Below are positions 55,991 through 62,396 of a stretch of DNA of 64,000 nt, in pieces. The notes below the pieces were generated by a model that had not been told where the DNA came from, searched no databases, and was given only the letters and a program-made list of their open reading frames with translations. A program made the position numbers and the translations under genes. Origin of the DNA: Hallerella succinigenes (GTDB taxonomy: Bacteria; Fibrobacterota; Fibrobacteria; Fibrobacterales; Fibrobacteraceae); NCBI RefSeq assembly GCF_002797675.1, contig NZ_PGEX01000001.1:744001-808000 (forward strand), written 5' to 3'. Within the stretch, counting starts at the first letter, position 1, and each line of letters begins with the position of its first letter.

Positions 55991-56018
55991 CCAAAAGTTA
56001 CAATTTACTAACTTTTGG
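55991..56018 (+). promoter_or_regulatory. perfect inverted repeat before the ZIP gene start
   Basis: CCAAAAGTTA, eight bases, TAACTTTTGG: a 10-bp perfect dyad that ends two bases before the ATG at 56021. It covers the site where a ribosome-binding sequence would lie, and none is seen. It may be an operator or an RNA hairpin blocking translation. Confidence 0.55.
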
Positions 56019-56020
56019 AT

Positions 56021-56800
56021 ATGAATCCAACTGTTACCGGATTACTGATTCCTTTTTTAGGAACTTCGCTCGGCGCTGCGATGGTCTTTTTTCTGCGTGA
56101 CAAAATCCAGCGTTCCGTAGAAATGATGCTCATGGGATTTGCCGGCGGCGTGATGATTGCAGCGTCTATTTGGAGTCTTCTGATTCCGGCGATCAACCAA
56201 GCCGAATCCATGGGAAAGCTTTCCTTCATTCCTGCAGTTGTTGGATTCTGGGCGGGCATTCTCTTTTTACTGCTTTTGGACCATTTTATTCCGCACTTGC
56301 ACAATCACGCGAATCATCCGGAAGGTCCTCAGTCCCATTTAAAGCGTTCGACAATGCTCTTGCTCGCCGTGACGTTGCACAACATTCCAGAAGGCATGGC
56401 TGTCGGTGTTGTTTACGGTGGAATTCTGGCCGGGAACGCGACCATCACTTGGGCAGGCGCCCTTGCTCTGAGCCTTGGCATCGCCATTCAAAACATTCCG
56501 GAAGGCGCGATTATTTCAATGCCTCTTAAGGCTTCGGGCTTTAATCGGCCCAAAGCTTTCTTTTACGGTGTCCTTTCGGGAACCGTGGAACCGATTGCAG
56601 GCGCTTTGACATTCTTTGCATCATCGATGATTACCCCGGCGATGCCCTTCCTGTTGAGCTTTGCCGCAGGCGCCATGATTTACGTTGTAATCGAAGAACT
56701 CGTTCCCGGCACAAAATCCGGCGATCACTCCGATATCGGAACTCTTTTCTTCGCTTTCGGCTTTAGCCTCATGATGATTCTCGATGTGGCACTCGGCTAA
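56021..56800 (+). CDS. ZIP-family zinc/metal transporter
   Basis: A 259-residue inner-membrane transporter that brings divalent metals such as Zn into the cytoplasm. Eight hydrophobic segments. The metal-site motifs are TLHNIPEGMAVGVVYG (helix IV) and IAIQNIPEGAIISMPL (helix V). The short His-rich loop DHFIPHLHNHANHPEG probably also binds metal. GufA/ZupT subgroup by length. ATG at 56021 is used; a TTG two codons earlier is possible. No good SD is present because a dyad occupies that space. Confidence 0.9.
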   Translation: MNPTVTGLLIPFLGTSLGAAMVFFLRDKIQRSVEMMLMGFAGGVMIAASIWSLLIPAINQAESMGKLSFIPAVVGFWAGILFLLLLDHFIPHLHNHANHPEGPQSHLKRSTMLLLAVTLHNIPEGMAVGVVYGGILAGNATITWAGALALSLGIAIQNIPEGAIISMPLKASGFNRPKAFFYGVLSGTVEPIAGALTFFASSMITPAMPFLLSFAAGAMIYVVIEELVPGTKSGDHSDIGTLFFAFGFSLMMILDVALG

Positions 56801-56827: not shown

Positions 56828-56888
56828 TTAGTCTTGACTAACATCCAGTTCCGTTGTATATTATCTTGGAAGAATTAGACAAGACTAA
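56828..56888 (+). promoter_or_regulatory. flavodoxin promoter with two metal-regulator boxes
   Basis: A strong promoter TTGACT (56834-56839), 17 bases, TATATT (56857-56862). Two palindromes TTAGTCTTGACTAA (56828-56841) and TTAGACAAGACTAA (56875-56888) overlap the -35 and the region just downstream of the start. They match TTAGnCnnGnCTAA, also found at the feo promoter. A DtxR-family repressor would block transcription in iron-rich cells. Confidence 0.8.
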
Positions 56889-56900
56889 TAAAGGACAACT

Positions 56901-57323
56901 ATGAAAATTGCAGTCATCTATTGGAGCGGCACCGGTAACACCGAAGCCATGGCAAATGCTGTTCTCGAAGGCGCTAAAGATGCCGGTGCAGACGCACAGC
57001 TCTTCACCTGTTCTGATTTCAACCTCGCCACCGCAGATTCCTTCGACGGTTTCGCTCTCGGTTGCCCGGCCATGGGTGCTGAAGAACTCGAAGATTCTGA
57101 ATTCCTTCCGTTCTACAACGATCTCAAATCTTCTCTCGCTGGCAAGAAAGTTGCCCTCTTTGGCTCTTACGGCTGGGGCGGTGGCGAATGGATGAAACTT
57201 TGGGAAGCCGACTGTTTCACAGGCGCTCCGGTGAAGGCTTGCGAAAGCGTGATCTCGGAAGAAGCTCCGAGCGATGATGTTCTCGCTCAGTGCAAGGAAC
57301 TCGGCGCAGCCGTTTCCAAGTAA
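56901..57323 (+). CDS. flavodoxin
   Basis: A 140-residue short-chain flavodoxin. FMN phosphate loop WSGTGNTEAMA (residues 8-18), the 50s-loop FALGCPAMGAE and GSYGWGGGEWM with the aromatic that stacks on FMN. It replaces ferredoxin as electron carrier when iron is short. AAAGGA upstream. The promoter palindromes predict repression by iron through the DtxR-type protein. Monocistronic, closed by a strong terminator. Confidence 0.93.
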   Translation: MKIAVIYWSGTGNTEAMANAVLEGAKDAGADAQLFTCSDFNLATADSFDGFALGCPAMGAEELEDSEFLPFYNDLKSSLAGKKVALFGSYGWGGGEWMKLWEADCFTGAPVKACESVISEEAPSDDVLAQCKELGAAVSK

Positions 57324-57762: not shown

Positions 57763-60081
57763 TTACTTCTGATTCGCAATCGCGTCCACCGAGCGGACTG
57801 CGCCAAAGGCATTACCCTTGTATGGATCCGGACGGAAGAGCTGGAAGAGAATGCCTGCGAGGAAGAGGATTGCTATCACGGTTCCCACGCCAAAACCTGC
57901 ACCCAAAATCACACTACCAATCTGGTAGACGATAAAGGTGATGACCCATGCCCAAACATTCTGGAAAATCACTGCGAACCAGAACCACTTGCGGTCATTG
58001 AGTTCGCGAGCCATGGTCGCAATCGCAGCCAAGCACGGAGAATTGAGAAGGTTGAAGATCAGGAAGCAGAAGGCTGCAAGAGCCGACGGGAACCAGGTCA
58101 TCAAAGCCTTACTGAACGGGTTATCCGCATCCAGATCGTCTTCTGCACCCGAAGCTTCTTCGACAGCGGCTTCGTTACCACCGGCGAGAACCGCCATGGT
58201 ACCGACAATCGCTTCCTTCGCGGAGAAGCCCGAGAGGGATGCGGCAGCTGCCTGCCAGCCACCCTGTTCACCACCGAAGCCGAGCGGAATGAAGATGTAA
58301 CGGAGCTTGTCACCGATACGGGCGAGAATCGAGTTAGCCGAGTTTTCAACAATACCGAACTGGAGGTTTTCCGAATCAGCGGCAAGGCCTGTTTCGTAAG
58401 CGACTTCTTCCGCAGCCGGAGCTTCAGCTACCTGTTCCGTAGCCGTTTCTTCAGCTTCCGGAGCCGGAGTTTCAAAGCCGTAAGTAGAAAGGAACCACAT
58501 TGCCAAGCAAGCGAGGAAGAGGATCGTACCGGCCTTGATCAAGAAGCCCTTGGTACGTTCCCAAGCGTGCATCAAAACGGTTTTGAGCTGCGGCATGTGA
58601 TACTGCGGGAGTTCCATCACGAACGGAGCCGCTTCACCGTGGAAAGGCTTCGTCTTCTTGAGCATGATGGCGGCGAGGAGAACGCTACCGAGACCGAAAG
58701 CGTACACGCCCGGAGCAACCCAGGAACCGAAGCCGCCCGCAGCTGCAATCACGCCCGCCATGCAAGCAATCACCGGAAGCTTTGCACCACACGGAACCCA
58801 AGTCGTGGTCATAATCGTCAAACGGCGGTCATTATTATTTTCAATGGTCTTCGAAGCCATGATGCCCGGAATTCCGCAACCCGAAGAAACGAGGAGCGGA
58901 ATAAAGCTCTTGCCCGAAAGACCGAAGCGACGGAAGATACGGTCCATCACGAATGCGATACGGACCATGTAACCGCAGTCTTCAATAAAGGAGAGCAAAA
59001 CAAACAAGATGAACATCTGCGGAGCGAAGCCGACAACGGCACCCACGCCACCGATGACACCGTTCACGAGAGCATCGGTCAGGATCGGATTTGCACCGGC
59101 ACCTTCCATCCATCCCTGGACAGCTTCCATGATACCGCCGACGAAGTCATCGTTCGTCCAGTCCGTAGCCATGGAGCCCACAGTCGTGACGGAGATGTAA
59201 TACACAGCCCACATCACAAAGAGGAAGATCGGAAGGCCGAGAATGCGGTTCGTTACAATGCGGTCAATCTTGTCAGAAAGGGTCAAGTACTTTCCAGACT
59301 TCTTGAGCACGCCCTGCAGGATGTCGCAGATGTAGTTATAACGTTCATCGGTGATGATCGATTCGCTGTCATTGTCACGGGCGGTTTCGAGGGCCTTCAC
59401 CAATGCTTCAACCTTAGCCTTGTCCGCATCAGAAAAAGCGATGCGTTCTTTCACGTTCTGGTCGCGTTCAATCAGCTTGATCGCATACCAGCGCTTGAGA
59501 CTTTCTTTGATCGTTGCCGGAAGAAGAGCGGTCACGTCTGCGATTGTTTTTTCGACATCATCGGCAAACTTCGTTTGAGCCTGTGTAGCCTTGGACTGGC
59601 AAAGTTCCACAGCCTTCTGAGCGGCTTCCTGAACACCCTTGCCGTAAAGGGCCTGGGTTTCGACGATCACGACTCCGAGCTTTTCGGAAAGCTTCTGCAC
59701 GTCGATCGTGTCGCCGGACTTCTTCAAAGCGTCCATCATGTTAAGCGCAATGACAGTAGGCTTGCCGAGTTCGAGAAGCTGAGTCGTCAAATAGAGGTTT
59801 CGTTCAATGTTCGTCGCATCAACGATGTTTAAAATGACGTTCGGAGCGTCACTCATCAAATAGTCGCGGGAAACGACTTCTTCCTGAGTGTACGGGGAAA
59901 GGGAATAGATACCCGGAAGGTCCGTGACGACCGTGTCCTTGGACTTCTTGAGGCGGCCTTCCTTGCGTTCCACCGTCACGCCCGGCCAGTTACCCACATA
60001 CTGGTTTGCACCCGTCAGGGCGTTGAACATGGTAGTCTTACCGCAATTCGGATTACCTGCGAGAGCAATTGTCGTTGCCAT
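57763..60081 (-). CDS. feoB: ferrous iron transporter FeoB
   Basis: A 772-residue inner-membrane Fe2+ transporter. The N-terminal G domain shows GNPNCGKTT (residues 9-17), NWPGVTVER, DLPGIYSL and NMMD; a helical spacer follows, then about ten membrane helices with the Cys-containing SSGCGIPGIMA and WVPCGAKLPV motifs. A 29-residue Glu/Ala/Pro-rich insertion (about 537-565) lies after a helix near WFLSTYGF. The G domain spelling of G4 is NMMD. Coupled to feoA, 14 bases upstream. Ferrous uptake suits an anaerobe. Confidence 0.96.
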   Translation of the reverse strand: MATTIALAGNPNCGKTTMFNALTGANQYVGNWPGVTVERKEGRLKKSKDTVVTDLPGIYSLSPYTQEEVVSRDYLMSDAPNVILNIVDATNIERNLYLTTQLLELGKPTVIALNMMDALKKSGDTIDVQKLSEKLGVVIVETQALYGKGVQEAAQKAVELCQSKATQAQTKFADDVEKTIADVTALLPATIKESLKRWYAIKLIERDQNVKERIAFSDADKAKVEALVKALETARDNDSESIITDERYNYICDILQGVLKKSGKYLTLSDKIDRIVTNRILGLPIFLFVMWAVYYISVTTVGSMATDWTNDDFVGGIMEAVQGWMEGAGANPILTDALVNGVIGGVGAVVGFAPQMFILFVLLSFIEDCGYMVRIAFVMDRIFRRFGLSGKSFIPLLVSSGCGIPGIMASKTIENNNDRRLTIMTTTWVPCGAKLPVIACMAGVIAAAGGFGSWVAPGVYAFGLGSVLLAAIMLKKTKPFHGEAAPFVMELPQYHMPQLKTVLMHAWERTKGFLIKAGTILFLACLAMWFLSTYGFETPAPEAEETATEQVAEAPAAEEVAYETGLAADSENLQFGIVENSANSILARIGDKLRYIFIPLGFGGEQGGWQAAAASLSGFSAKEAIVGTMAVLAGGNEAAVEEASGAEDDLDADNPFSKALMTWFPSALAAFCFLIFNLLNSPCLAAIATMARELNDRKWFWFAVIFQNVWAWVITFIVYQIGSVILGAGFGVGTVIAILFLAGILFQLFRPDPYKGNAFGAVRSVDAIANQK

Positions 60082-60095
60082 TTTCAGAACACTCC

Positions 60096-60323
60096 TTATG
60101 CGTCTTTGACTTCAACACGTTCCGCATCATCTTTGCGAATGCTGAGTTCATAACCGCGCACAGTCACTTCCACCGGATCCCCGAGCGGAGCAACCTTGCG
60201 AACGTACACTTCTGCACCGTTTGTGAGACCCATGTCCATCAAACGACGCTTGAGAGCACCTTCACCATGGAGCTTGGCAACCTTCACGGTTTCGCCAACC
60301 TGTACATCACGTAAAGTTTTCAT
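60096..60323 (-). CDS. feoA: FeoA, first copy
   Basis: A 75-residue SH3-like protein that interacts with FeoB. Pattern GETVKVAKLHGEGALKRRLM, DMGLTNGAEVYVRKVAPLGD, VRGYELSIRKDDAERV. Lies 14 bases before feoB. Confidence 0.92.
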   Translation of the reverse strand: MKTLRDVQVGETVKVAKLHGEGALKRRLMDMGLTNGAEVYVRKVAPLGDPVEVTVRGYELSIRKDDAERVEVKDA

Positions 60324-60345: not shown

Positions 60346-60555
60346 TCAGACCATAATACGGCATGCCAACTTGCGGTCCAGAGCAATGCGAGATTCTTTC
60401 ACCTTCACAATCACGTTGCCGCCAAGGCTCGCCACGACCGTCACCGGCGTACCGACACTGAAACCGAGTTCGTTCAAGTGCTGTTTCACAACGTTATCGC
60501 CACCCAAACGCTTGACCGTAAAAATTTCTCCAATTGTGCAAAAAGTTAAAGGCAT
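60346..60555 (-). CDS. FeoA-like, second copy
   Basis: A 69-residue FeoA-family protein (TIGEIFTVKRLGGDNVVKQH, LNELGFSVGTPVTVVASLGG, VIVKVKESRIALDRKLA). AGAGG before the ATG at 60555; the longer frame extends only into the barrel gene on the same strand and lacks family sequence. Operons with two FeoA copies are common in some anaerobes; the two proteins differ clearly, so they may have different jobs. Confidence 0.88.
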   Translation of the reverse strand: MPLTFCTIGEIFTVKRLGGDNVVKQHLNELGFSVGTPVTVVASLGGNVIVKVKESRIALDRKLACRIMV

Positions 60556-60577: not shown

Positions 60578-61810
60578 TTAGAAAGACAGCGCAACGGATG
60601 CACCGGCGACGAGGTACATCTCATCGCTTTCACCGTAATCGTCACCCATCGGGACGCAAACGCGGAAGTAACCATCGAAGCCGAAGTTATCCGAAACGGT
60701 GTAATAAGCCTTCGGAGCGAGCCAAAGCTGGGAAAGCTCTGCATCGGTGTCGAGAGTCATCGAGTGCAATTCAACCTGTGCACCGAGGCTCAAGTTTTCG
60801 GTAAGGCCGAAGACCGGTTCCGCATAGACGAAGAAGTGTTCAGGAACTTCCAAGTCCGTCGGATCATCGTCATCGAGGAATGCCTTGAAGACGGTTGCCT
60901 TGAGGCTTACCTTGCCGAAGTTGAATTCCGGTTCTGCAGCAAGAGCGTGGGTCATCTTCGGAGTGTCTTCGGTGAGAGCGTCAGACTTCAAGCCGTAAAC
61001 GAGCTGGAGGGTACCGATCGAGCCGAGAGCGAGGTTAGCCGTCACGCCGAAGCGGAGGCTGTTATGGGATTCCGTCTGGTAGCTCTTGTAATTGAAGAAC
61101 GGACGGATTGTATGGTTGCCCAGGGCGAGTTCATAAGCGGCATGGAAGTCGTAAGTGGTGCAGCCGACGTCCGAATCGCTGCAGTCATCGTCATCGCGAC
61201 CCCAGCCGAGTCCCACGAGAAGACCGTGTGCATTCAATTCGAGACCACGGGTATTGCGTTCCACCATGCCAATCGCATAGTCACCCGGATCATCGTAATC
61301 GTAGTAACGGAAGGCGCCTTCTGCATAGGTGAAGTCACCAGCCTTGATAGCGACGCCTTCGCCTAGCTGATACTGAATGAAAGCACCGTCATAGGCAAAA
61401 TGCGGAGCGGTACCGTCGCCGTCAGCGGAAATAGCCGCTTCAGCAGACCACTTGTCCGTGAACTGCACGCCGAACACGAGATTGAACGTCGAAGCGTAAT
61501 CGTGGAACCATTTGTTTTCTTCTGCGTTGTTGTTCGTTTCATCACGCGGATCGACCTTCTTGTAATCCGTATTGGCTTCGAATTCCACTTCGCCAGCCAC
61601 CGTGAACTTCGGGCCTTCATTCGAAGCGGCCGGAGCAGAAGCTTCCGTTGCGGCAGCGGTTGCAGCCTGCTGGACATCAGCCGGCTGAGATGCTTCCCGC
61701 TGAACTTCTTTCTGAACGGCAGCCGGTTCTTCTTCGTAATTACCGTCTTGAGCATAAAGCGGAGCTGCAAAGAGTGCAGATGCAAGCATTAAACCAAAAG
61801 TCTTTGTCAT
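60578..61810 (-). CDS. outer-membrane barrel protein of the feo operon
   Basis: A 410-residue exported protein: signal peptide to about residue 20 (PLYAQDG), a roughly 50-residue Ala/Glu/Gln-rich linker, then alternating strands and a C-terminal GASVALSF, as in porins. Acidic runs (DDDDCSDSDVGC with two Cys; DYDDPGDY) could bind metal. First gene of the feo operon, 22 bases ahead of the second feoA, and controlled by metal boxes. It may be an outer-membrane pore for ferrous iron. ATG 61810 has AAAGGA six bases before it; the ATG just before is too near. Confidence 0.83.
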   Translation of the reverse strand: MTKTFGLMLASALFAAPLYAQDGNYEEEPAAVQKEVQREASQPADVQQAATAAATEASAPAASNEGPKFTVAGEVEFEANTDYKKVDPRDETNNNAEENKWFHDYASTFNLVFGVQFTDKWSAEAAISADGDGTAPHFAYDGAFIQYQLGEGVAIKAGDFTYAEGAFRYYDYDDPGDYAIGMVERNTRGLELNAHGLLVGLGWGRDDDDCSDSDVGCTTYDFHAAYELALGNHTIRPFFNYKSYQTESHNSLRFGVTANLALGSIGTLQLVYGLKSDALTEDTPKMTHALAAEPEFNFGKVSLKATVFKAFLDDDDPTDLEVPEHFFVYAEPVFGLTENLSLGAQVELHSMTLDTDAELSQLWLAPKAYYTVSDNFGFDGYFRVCVPMGDDYGESDEMYLVAGASVALSF

Positions 61811-61851: not shown

Positions 61852-61949
61852 TTAGCGATCGCTATCTGAATTAGATTCAACTAGAGTTTTTAGTTTTGGC
61901 TAATTTCTAGGACAAATTTAGCTATAGCTAAATAATTAGTCAAGGCTAA
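61852..61949 (-). promoter_or_regulatory. feo promoter with four metal-regulator boxes
   Basis: Minus strand promoter TTGACT (61943-61938), 17 bases, TAAATT (61920-61915). Four palindromes of the same kind: 61936-61949 (TTAGTCAAGGCTAA on the plus strand) over the -35, 61918-61931 (TTAGCTATAGCTAA, perfect) next to the -10, 61890-61903 (TTAGTTTTGGCTAA) near the start region, and 61852-61865 (TTAGCGATCGCTAT). The same spacing logic is seen at the flavodoxin promoter. Confidence 0.82.
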
Positions 61950-61985: not shown

Positions 61986-62396
61986 CTAGGTGGTCTTCTT
62001 GGATTCTTTCTTTTTTGAGTTTTTTTTGACGTTTTTTTCGACAAAGGACTCAATTCGGTCCAAAGTTTCGCTAGAAAGGACGTGTTCAATGGCACAGGCG
62101 TCTTCATTTGCGATTTCCGACGGGACCCCTAACTGTTCAAGAAAGCCGCGCAAGAGCTTGTGACGGCAAAGGACCGACTTGGCCGCAGCCATGCCGGACG
62201 GGGTGAGTTCTACGAGCCCATAAGGTTCCTGTTCCACGTACCCCAAAGCTTTCAACTCGCCCAAAGCCCGAACGACGGAGGGAGCCTTAACGCGAAGTTC
62301 CGCAGCAATGTCTTTGAGGCGAACAGCCCCTTTTGACAAATGCAGCACGAGCACCGCTTCTAAGTAATCTTCTAGACTTTGGCTGAGCTTTTTCAT
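61986..62396 (-). CDS. DtxR/MntR-family metal-dependent regulator
   Basis: A 136-residue repressor. N-terminal winged helix SLEDYLEAVLVLHLSKGAVR with recognition part VKAPSVVRALGELKALGYVE; dimerisation and metal part with CRHKLLRGFLEQLGV and EDACAIEHVLSSETLDRI (Glu, His and Cys ligands). The SH3-like third domain is absent, so it is of the short type; a Lys-rich tail replaces it. Immediately upstream of the feo promoter, it is the natural candidate to bind the TTAGnCnnGnCTAA boxes with Fe2+ (Mn2+ is possible). Confidence 0.9.
   Translation of the reverse strand: MKKLSQSLEDYLEAVLVLHLSKGAVRLKDIAAELRVKAPSVVRALGELKALGYVEQEPYGLVELTPSGMAAAKSVLCRHKLLRGFLEQLGVPSEIANEDACAIEHVLSSETLDRIESFVEKNVKKNSKKKESKKTT

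Follow-up and report, generated by a model that had tools for sequence, protein, structure and literature searches.

A porin-like gene of the feo regulon in Fibrobacteraceae and its probable role in ferrous-iron entry across the outer membrane

General porins are usually credited with the passage of ferrous iron across the outer membrane. An operon of Hallerella succinigenes, in which the gene for a porin-like protein precedes feoA and feoB, raises the question of whether Fe(II) may have an outer-membrane route of its own. The stretch of DNA analysed (hereafter the window) comprises 64,000 nucleotides and corresponds to positions 744001-808000 of a single-contig genome of 3.13 Mb. The genes follow one another on the minus strand in the order barrel, feoA1, feoA2 and feoB, with gaps of 22, 22 and 14 nt, and the features of this part of the window are as follows.

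61986-62396, minus strand, DtxR/MntR-type regulator of 136 aa (PF02742 and PF01325 over cut-off)
61915-61943, minus strand, sigma70-like promoter TTGACT-17-TAAATT upstream of the barrel gene, from a promoter scan
60578-61810, minus strand, outer-membrane porin-like barrel of 410 aa (its ATG ends at 61810, its TAA lies at 60578-60580)
60346-60555, minus strand, feoA1, 69 aa (Pfam PF04023, E 3.3e-18)
60096-60323, minus strand, feoA2, 75 aa (Pfam PF04023, E 2.5e-23)
57763-60081, minus strand, feoB, 772 aa (TIGR00437, 522.4 bits against a cut-off of 315.65)

An earlier note on this DNA had placed an outer-membrane protein at the head of the feo operon, and this was borne out by the predicted barrel and the closely spaced feoA-feoA-feoB genes that follow it. 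The FeoB and FeoA domains PF02421, PF07670, PF17910, PF07664 and PF04023 all scored above their cut-offs, as expected of a FeoAB transporter, and the feoB gene of the window gave the only FeoB match of the genome at E <= 1e-30. Tight gaps, a promoter-like site and three palindromic boxes upstream make up the arrangement of a porin belonging to a feo operon (FeoP-like), from which we infer a single barrel-feoA-feoA-feoB transcript. The promoter scan, which covered 56.7-62.5 kb, gave one other minus-strand match, located inside feoA1; since five matches were found compared with 3.2 in shuffled sequences, the scan is weak when taken alone. TTGACT and a downstream TAAATT could also be read by eye in four loci of the genus. 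A terminator-like hairpin was found at the 3' end of the barrel gene (60605-60587), one of 10 such matches where 7.1 were expected. A DUF2914 gene lies upstream of the barrel on the same strand, as does the regulator gene, and a multi-pass protein, which we take to be a ZIP-type metal transporter, is encoded on the plus strand close to the feo operon (56015-56800).

The control of the operon is suggested by palindromes of the form TTAG-N6-CTAA. Five such sites are present in the window, three upstream of the barrel and two upstream of a flavodoxin gene.

61936-61949, unstranded, box 1, TTAG-N6-CTAA containing the -35-like hexamer
61918-61931, unstranded, box 2, TTAG-N6-CTAA forming the core of a 16-bp palindrome, TTTAGCTATAGCTAAA, at 61917-61932
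61890-61903, unstranded, box 3, TTAG-N6-CTAA
56875-56888, unstranded, second TTAG-N6-CTAA box upstream of the flavodoxin gene
56828-56841, unstranded, flavodoxin-promoter box, TTAG-N6-CTAA with TTGACT at 56834 inside it
56901-57323, plus strand, flavodoxin of 140 aa, predicted to be co-regulated (PF00258, E 7.7e-14)

The sequence TTTAGCNNNNGCTAAA occurs at one place in the whole genome, at box 2. The feo and flavodoxin promoters resemble each other in that TTGACT lies inside a box in both, and the flavodoxin gene is predicted to be the second operon of an iron regulon. Genome-wide, 16 TTAG-N6-CTAA sites were found, compared with 115 for the pattern read backwards. When the sites of this genome were ranked by a box matrix built from 62 distinct sites in loci of other genomes (both the matrix and the scan being confined to perfect TTAG-N6-CTAA sites), the five sites of the feo and flavodoxin promoters came out on top. 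The sixth-ranked site, at 264624 (score 16.91), falls within an ORF, and the seventh, at 1879237 (score 16.35), is intergenic, with another DtxR-type gene starting beside it. The product of this gene (L186:1096-1485) is 54% identical to the regulator of the window over 118 residues; with a box just upstream of its start, this gene is possibly autoregulated, and either of the two DtxR-type proteins of the genome is a candidate for binding the feo boxes. The metal-controlled promoter assumed in the earlier note is thus a supported prediction, given the three boxes and the adjoining gene of a DtxR/MntR-type protein.

The association of barrel and feoB was then followed through 101 genomes of Fibrobacteraceae, with a cut-off of E <= 1e-5 for the barrel and E <= 1e-30 for FeoB. 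A relative of the barrel was present in 99 of these genomes and a FeoB match in 90. At least 54 of 143 barrel matches, from at least 54 of the 101 genomes, have FeoB within 5 kb, with barrel and FeoB sharing a strand in all 54 cases, where about one such linkage would be expected by chance (by rough arithmetic, over genomes that are related to one another). These linkage counts are lower bounds drawn from the barrel and FeoB matches listed. Seven barrel rows were omitted from the 143 (G011 twice, G007, the second piece of G095, G082:C21, G005 and G016:C12:4064), none of which is on a contig with a listed FeoB match. Some of the genomes that have FeoB and lack a linked barrel reflect broken contigs, as in G018, where the feoB contig (L200) ends behind feoB with the box in place and the barrel starts another contig; in others the absence is real. 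Fourteen of 15 further feoB loci are without a barrel match, several of these loci being incomplete. A distant relative of the barrel (L187:11221-11961; 24% identity) is encoded about 4 kb from feoB in a second feoB locus of G010, a genome belonging to the same genus as the window.

The order of the genes is less constant than their association. Among the matches listed, the nearest FeoB lies upstream of the barrel in 44 linked cases and downstream in 10; five of the latter belong to the genus of the window, four of the other five have a FeoB further upstream as well, and in the remaining one (G051) the contig starts just before the barrel. The earlier note had suggested conservation of the order barrel-feoA-feoA-feoB as a check; this order is kept in five of the six genomes of the genus, the sixth genome (83% complete) having only a 33% FeoB among the matches listed, and its strict conservation is confined to that genus. 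Other genera mostly show regulator-feoA-feoB-barrel, with a palindrome of the barrel's own, so that co-regulation appears to be conserved more widely than gene order. A flavodoxin match follows this set in 9 of 71 named loci, and several loci have a second regulator-feoA-feoB set. In one of the loci (L099:10080-10854), a box also stands upstream of a DUF3793 gene between the barrel and the flavodoxin gene. In L099 and L140, a GC-rich hairpin, noted by eye in these two loci, is located between feoB and the barrel, before the box, so the barrel looks separately transcribed there, yet co-regulated. Separate transcription, which the earlier note had regarded as evidence against the proposed link, probably does occur in other genera, and there the operator still points to co-regulation.

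The boxes accompany this linkage closely. Of the 71 named loci, three had no usable start and were left out of the count; in the others, a box was found within 300 nt upstream of 38 of 41 feo-linked barrels compared with 2 of 27 unlinked ones. Both of these exceptions sit near a contig end (364 and 1060 nt away), and their linkage can hence not be judged. A perfect box is lacking in three linked barrels: L140 has a one-mismatch box, and L119 and L142 have nothing better than two mismatches. Two control patterns were absent from the same 300-nt upstream stretches, and over the whole loci 173 TTAG-N6-CTAA sites were counted, compared with 24 and 16 for the two controls.

With regard to evolution, the feo-linked members of a tree of 74 barrels fall into three parts separated by unlinked clades, and within the genus of the window linked and unlinked copies are interleaved. 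In a quick tree with long branches, a deep split sets the group containing the FeoB of the window apart from the FeoBs found in other genera. Such trees would fit either a repeated assembly of barrel and feo or an old linkage followed by many losses. In 112 of 150 genomes of the phylum, a profile search gave matches at E <= 1e-5; the best match outside the family reached E 2.9e-29 among the matches listed, compared with about 1e-60 to 1e-188 for close members. Many of the barrel-linked FeoBs outside the genus of the window have about 880-1040 codons (e.g., L099:5701-8610), and some are shorter, at about 770-800. The long ones carry extended Ala/Glu/Pro-rich inserts, which could be a contact or a mere linker; the insert of this kind in the FeoB of the window is shorter.

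What kind of protein the barrel is was addressed by structure prediction and family searches. Read by eye, the protein starts with a signal-peptide-like segment (residues ~1-21), followed by an Ala/Glu-rich stretch to ~64 and the barrel itself (~66-410), and its C-terminal residue is Phe. An AlphaFold2 model built from 48 aligned relatives had a mean pLDDT of 78.6 and a pTM of 0.76, with residues 1-64 below 50 pLDDT and 209 of the 410 residues at 90 or above. Eighteen strands were counted by eye in its DSSP line; Campylobacter MOMP likewise has 18 strands. The top Foldseek matches in the PDB were OprD-family porins and Campylobacter MOMP. VIA-align placed Campylobacter jejuni MOMP (5ldv) first (Z 22.6, rmsd 4.9, 318 residues, 13% identity), almost level with LamB, AlgE, ScrY and OprD-type porins, at identities of 7-13%. 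The barrel is accordingly predicted, from this model, to adopt the 18-strand outer-membrane porin fold of the MOMP, OprD/Occ and LamB class; the structure searches show only the families listed, and a family not listed is not thereby excluded as a relative.

Close homology to a known porin found no firm support in the sequence searches against Pfam, NCBIfam and the PDB. No relative of the barrel, MOMP included, was found in the PDB sequence search at E <= 1, and no significant family in the NCBIfam scan. Pfam assigned the barrel of the window to no family at E <= 0.1, its sole match at E <= 1 being NtrZ (E 0.12). OprB (PF04966) is absent from the 15 families matched at E <= 0.1 by any of the 48 members, and the phosphate-selective porin family O/P (PF07396) gave weak matches in 8 of the 48 (best E 0.0083) and none for the protein of the window, which does not suffice to place the barrel in that family. 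A TonB-dependent receptor was rejected: the plug domain PF07715 has no match in the barrel at E <= 1, and the two plug matches of the genome are elsewhere.

The features of the pore itself proved less informative about iron. The acidic runs on which the earlier note had drawn are present (the net charge of the barrel part is -37 in the window), but they are a family trait common to barrels away from feo and do not mark an iron pore. The barrel part has a median net charge of -50 in linked members (-55 to -34, 31 rows) and of -39 in unlinked ones (-52 to -17, 17 rows, including the contig-cut L091), so that linked barrels are somewhat more acidic overall and that of the window is not. The Cys pair that the same note had singled out is real, but it was rejected as an iron-binding or feo-specific trait, being found in unlinked barrels and missing from 11 of 31 feo-linked rows, namely the long-barrel clade and its sisters. 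Most conserved acidic, His and polar residues of the feo-linked barrels are common in unlinked ones as well, the exceptions listed being D207 and D396 (and A106). As residues and charge are shared with unlinked barrels, a role in iron uptake is indicated by context and control rather than by the pore. In addition, the genome has three further barrel relatives, paralogues of 70% identity at 266740, 41% at 2783737 and 24% at 925775, and a profile search gave five barrel matches in all (four besides the barrel of the window); with these further relatives, the pore of the window is not the sole candidate. The 70% paralogue (L042:7738-9606) adjoins an Fe/Mn superoxide dismutase gene and has none of the 16 boxes upstream.

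These observations bear on a rival explanation, in which the barrel is a general porin, or a porin for another substrate, that belongs to the iron regulon as part of a starvation response or for iron chelates or carboxylates and has no metal specificity. The predicted fold resembles that of sugar and carboxylate porins, unlinked barrels share most of the conserved polar residues, and in Escherichia coli Fe(II) is described as entering via the general porins OmpC/OmpF (PMC7315122). However, barrels paired with feoB are found in three parts of the tree and come with the operator, and a general porin is on balance an unlikely explanation. Genuine selectivity of the barrel for Fe(II) or divalent metals is a separate matter and appears doubtful.

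The metal to which the operon responds was considered from the regulator. This protein, placed in the DtxR/MntR family by its DNA-binding and metal domains together with its metal ligands, carries a mixed metal site (D10/E13/H79/C101/E104/H105). By the residue equivalences given for MntR and DtxR in PMC4805248, its ligands are those of MntR, except for a Cys at the position of MntR E99 and DtxR C102. Among 54 regulator rows, this Cys at the DtxR iron-site position is present in all 54, and the position of MntR D8 is occupied by Asp in 51, by Met in 2 and by a gap in 1.

FB2 of Porphyromonas gingivalis is a FeoB homologue. By analogy with it, the operon might import Mn(II), or manganese together with iron, with FeoB, FeoA and the porin under an MntR-type repressor, which we consider improbable. 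The closest PDB relatives of the regulator are MntR proteins, and the Asp at the D8 position is nearly general. The MntR of P. gingivalis, with the same Asp/Cys site, is reported to bind both Mn(II) and Fe(II), to dissociate from DNA when Fe(II) is high, and to control the manganese transporter FB2 but not to bind the promoter of FB1, the ferrous transporter (PMC4805248). Given this precedent, sequence leaves the choice of metal undecided, and the precedent itself counts against iron. Nramp was not found in the genome, in a search that was positive in only 7 of 14 control genomes, and the neighbour of the 70% paralogue could also be read in favour of manganese. On the other hand, an anaerobe of this kind needs iron, and the genome has a single FeoB match at the above cut-off and no match to Fur (PF01475), which was found in 13 of 14 control genomes. 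The same boxes stand before the gene of flavodoxin, an iron-saving protein, and an iron-repressed flavodoxin has been predicted in Desulfovibrio (PMC545781). Moreover, the Cys present in every regulator row was required for tight Fe(II) binding in the P. gingivalis protein (PMC4805248). Iron is the favoured metal, given the flavodoxin co-target, the single FeoB match and the absence of a detected Fur.

That the barrel is a mere chance neighbour of feo is highly improbable, because the 14 further feoB loci without a barrel match and the only distant one in L187, which would agree with it, are set against 54 same-strand linkages out of 54, a gene order that changes between genera and, outside the genus of the window, an operator belonging to the barrel itself.

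As judged from sequence context, the barrel very probably belongs to the feo regulon as an outer-membrane component. Gene order, boxes, the conserved association and the predicted fold are results of computation; in the scheme proposed for the ferrous-iron reading, we infer the repressor and its metal, the pore activity and Fe(II) as the substrate. In iron-replete cells, a metal-loaded repressor of the DtxR/MntR type would occupy the TTAG-N6-CTAA boxes, one of which covers the -35 hexamer, and shut the promoter off. Under iron shortage, the repressor would leave the DNA, and a single transcript would supply FeoB, both FeoA proteins and the porin; flavodoxin, expressed from another promoter built in the same way, would spare iron-sulphur ferredoxin. 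The porin, a predicted acidic barrel of 18 strands, might make the outer membrane more permeable to Fe(II), or to Fe(II) in a small complex, and so keep entry from limiting FeoB.

As the pairing is kept in many relatives in another gene order, the barrel is probably an outer gate for iron; it is likely to be the outer-membrane part of a system that imports ferrous iron, and an increase in Fe(II) entry through it is likewise probable. Of the dedicated ferrous route proposed in the earlier note, membership in the feo regulon stands, as indicated by linkage, operators and the change of order, and selectivity is only plausible. A broader view can be offered tentatively: Fibrobacteraceae may have a porin family of their own, without a Pfam or NCBIfam name, which is tied to feo in several lineages with different FeoBs and serves as a dedicated channel for divalent metal (Fe(II)); the porin, FeoA/FeoB, the repressors and flavodoxin would then make up a minimal iron regulon of the DtxR type that replaces Fur. 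A porin kept in step with FeoB in many species, by linkage and by an operator of its own, makes the question of Fe(II) entry testable.

Several known systems may be compared with this one. The porin-FeoB route of E. coli is similar for Fe(II), but OmpC and OmpF are general porins under EnvZ/OmpR (PMC7315122). FupA of Francisella is an outer-membrane protein for high-affinity Fe(II) uptake that acts with FeoB (PMC4905997), which is a functional parallel; it is described as FslE-like with a predicted plug, whereas a porin-like barrel encoded with feo is found here. MnoP of Bradyrhizobium, described in a review as an outer-membrane protein mediating divalent metal import (PMC9334652), is again a functional parallel, likened by description, and differs in that its metal is manganese. 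C. jejuni MOMP is the best structural match, with no sequence relation detected. No title or abstract on a feo porin of Fibrobacter was found in the open-licence PMC literature; a proteomics paper mentions an uncharacterised 'Porin' protein of F. succinogenes, FSU_1029, which has no established tie to the feo-barrel family. The one paper listed for a DtxR-type regulator combined with feoAB, flavodoxin and a porin concerned Laribacter.

The closest precedents are also exceptions to the premise of the earlier note that feo operons normally encode only inner-membrane and cytosolic parts. In Geobacter sulfurreducens, an OprB-type porin gene stands in the position X of X-feoA-feoA-feoB2 behind a Fur box, and a role of this porin in ferrous iron transport was suggested (Rodionov et al. 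2004, PMC545781). The likeness is a porin gene heading feoA-feoA-feoB behind a metal-regulator box; the differences, with families compared via Pfam, are that no OprB match was found in the 48 members here, and that the present case has DtxR-like boxes with no Fur detected and belongs to the phylum Fibrobacterota. In feoPABC of Acidithiobacillus (2008), the porin FeoP was suggested to admit Fe(II) to the periplasm (PMC2631029, PMC2621215); its gene also lies ahead of feoABC, and it differs in its OprB family (compared via Pfam), its Fur box and its acidophilic host. The present case is novel relative to these porin-feo pairings in showing no OprB match, DtxR-like boxes and another phylum, and the recurrence of the pairing with a non-OprB porin and another regulator argues that entry across the outer membrane can limit ferrous uptake.
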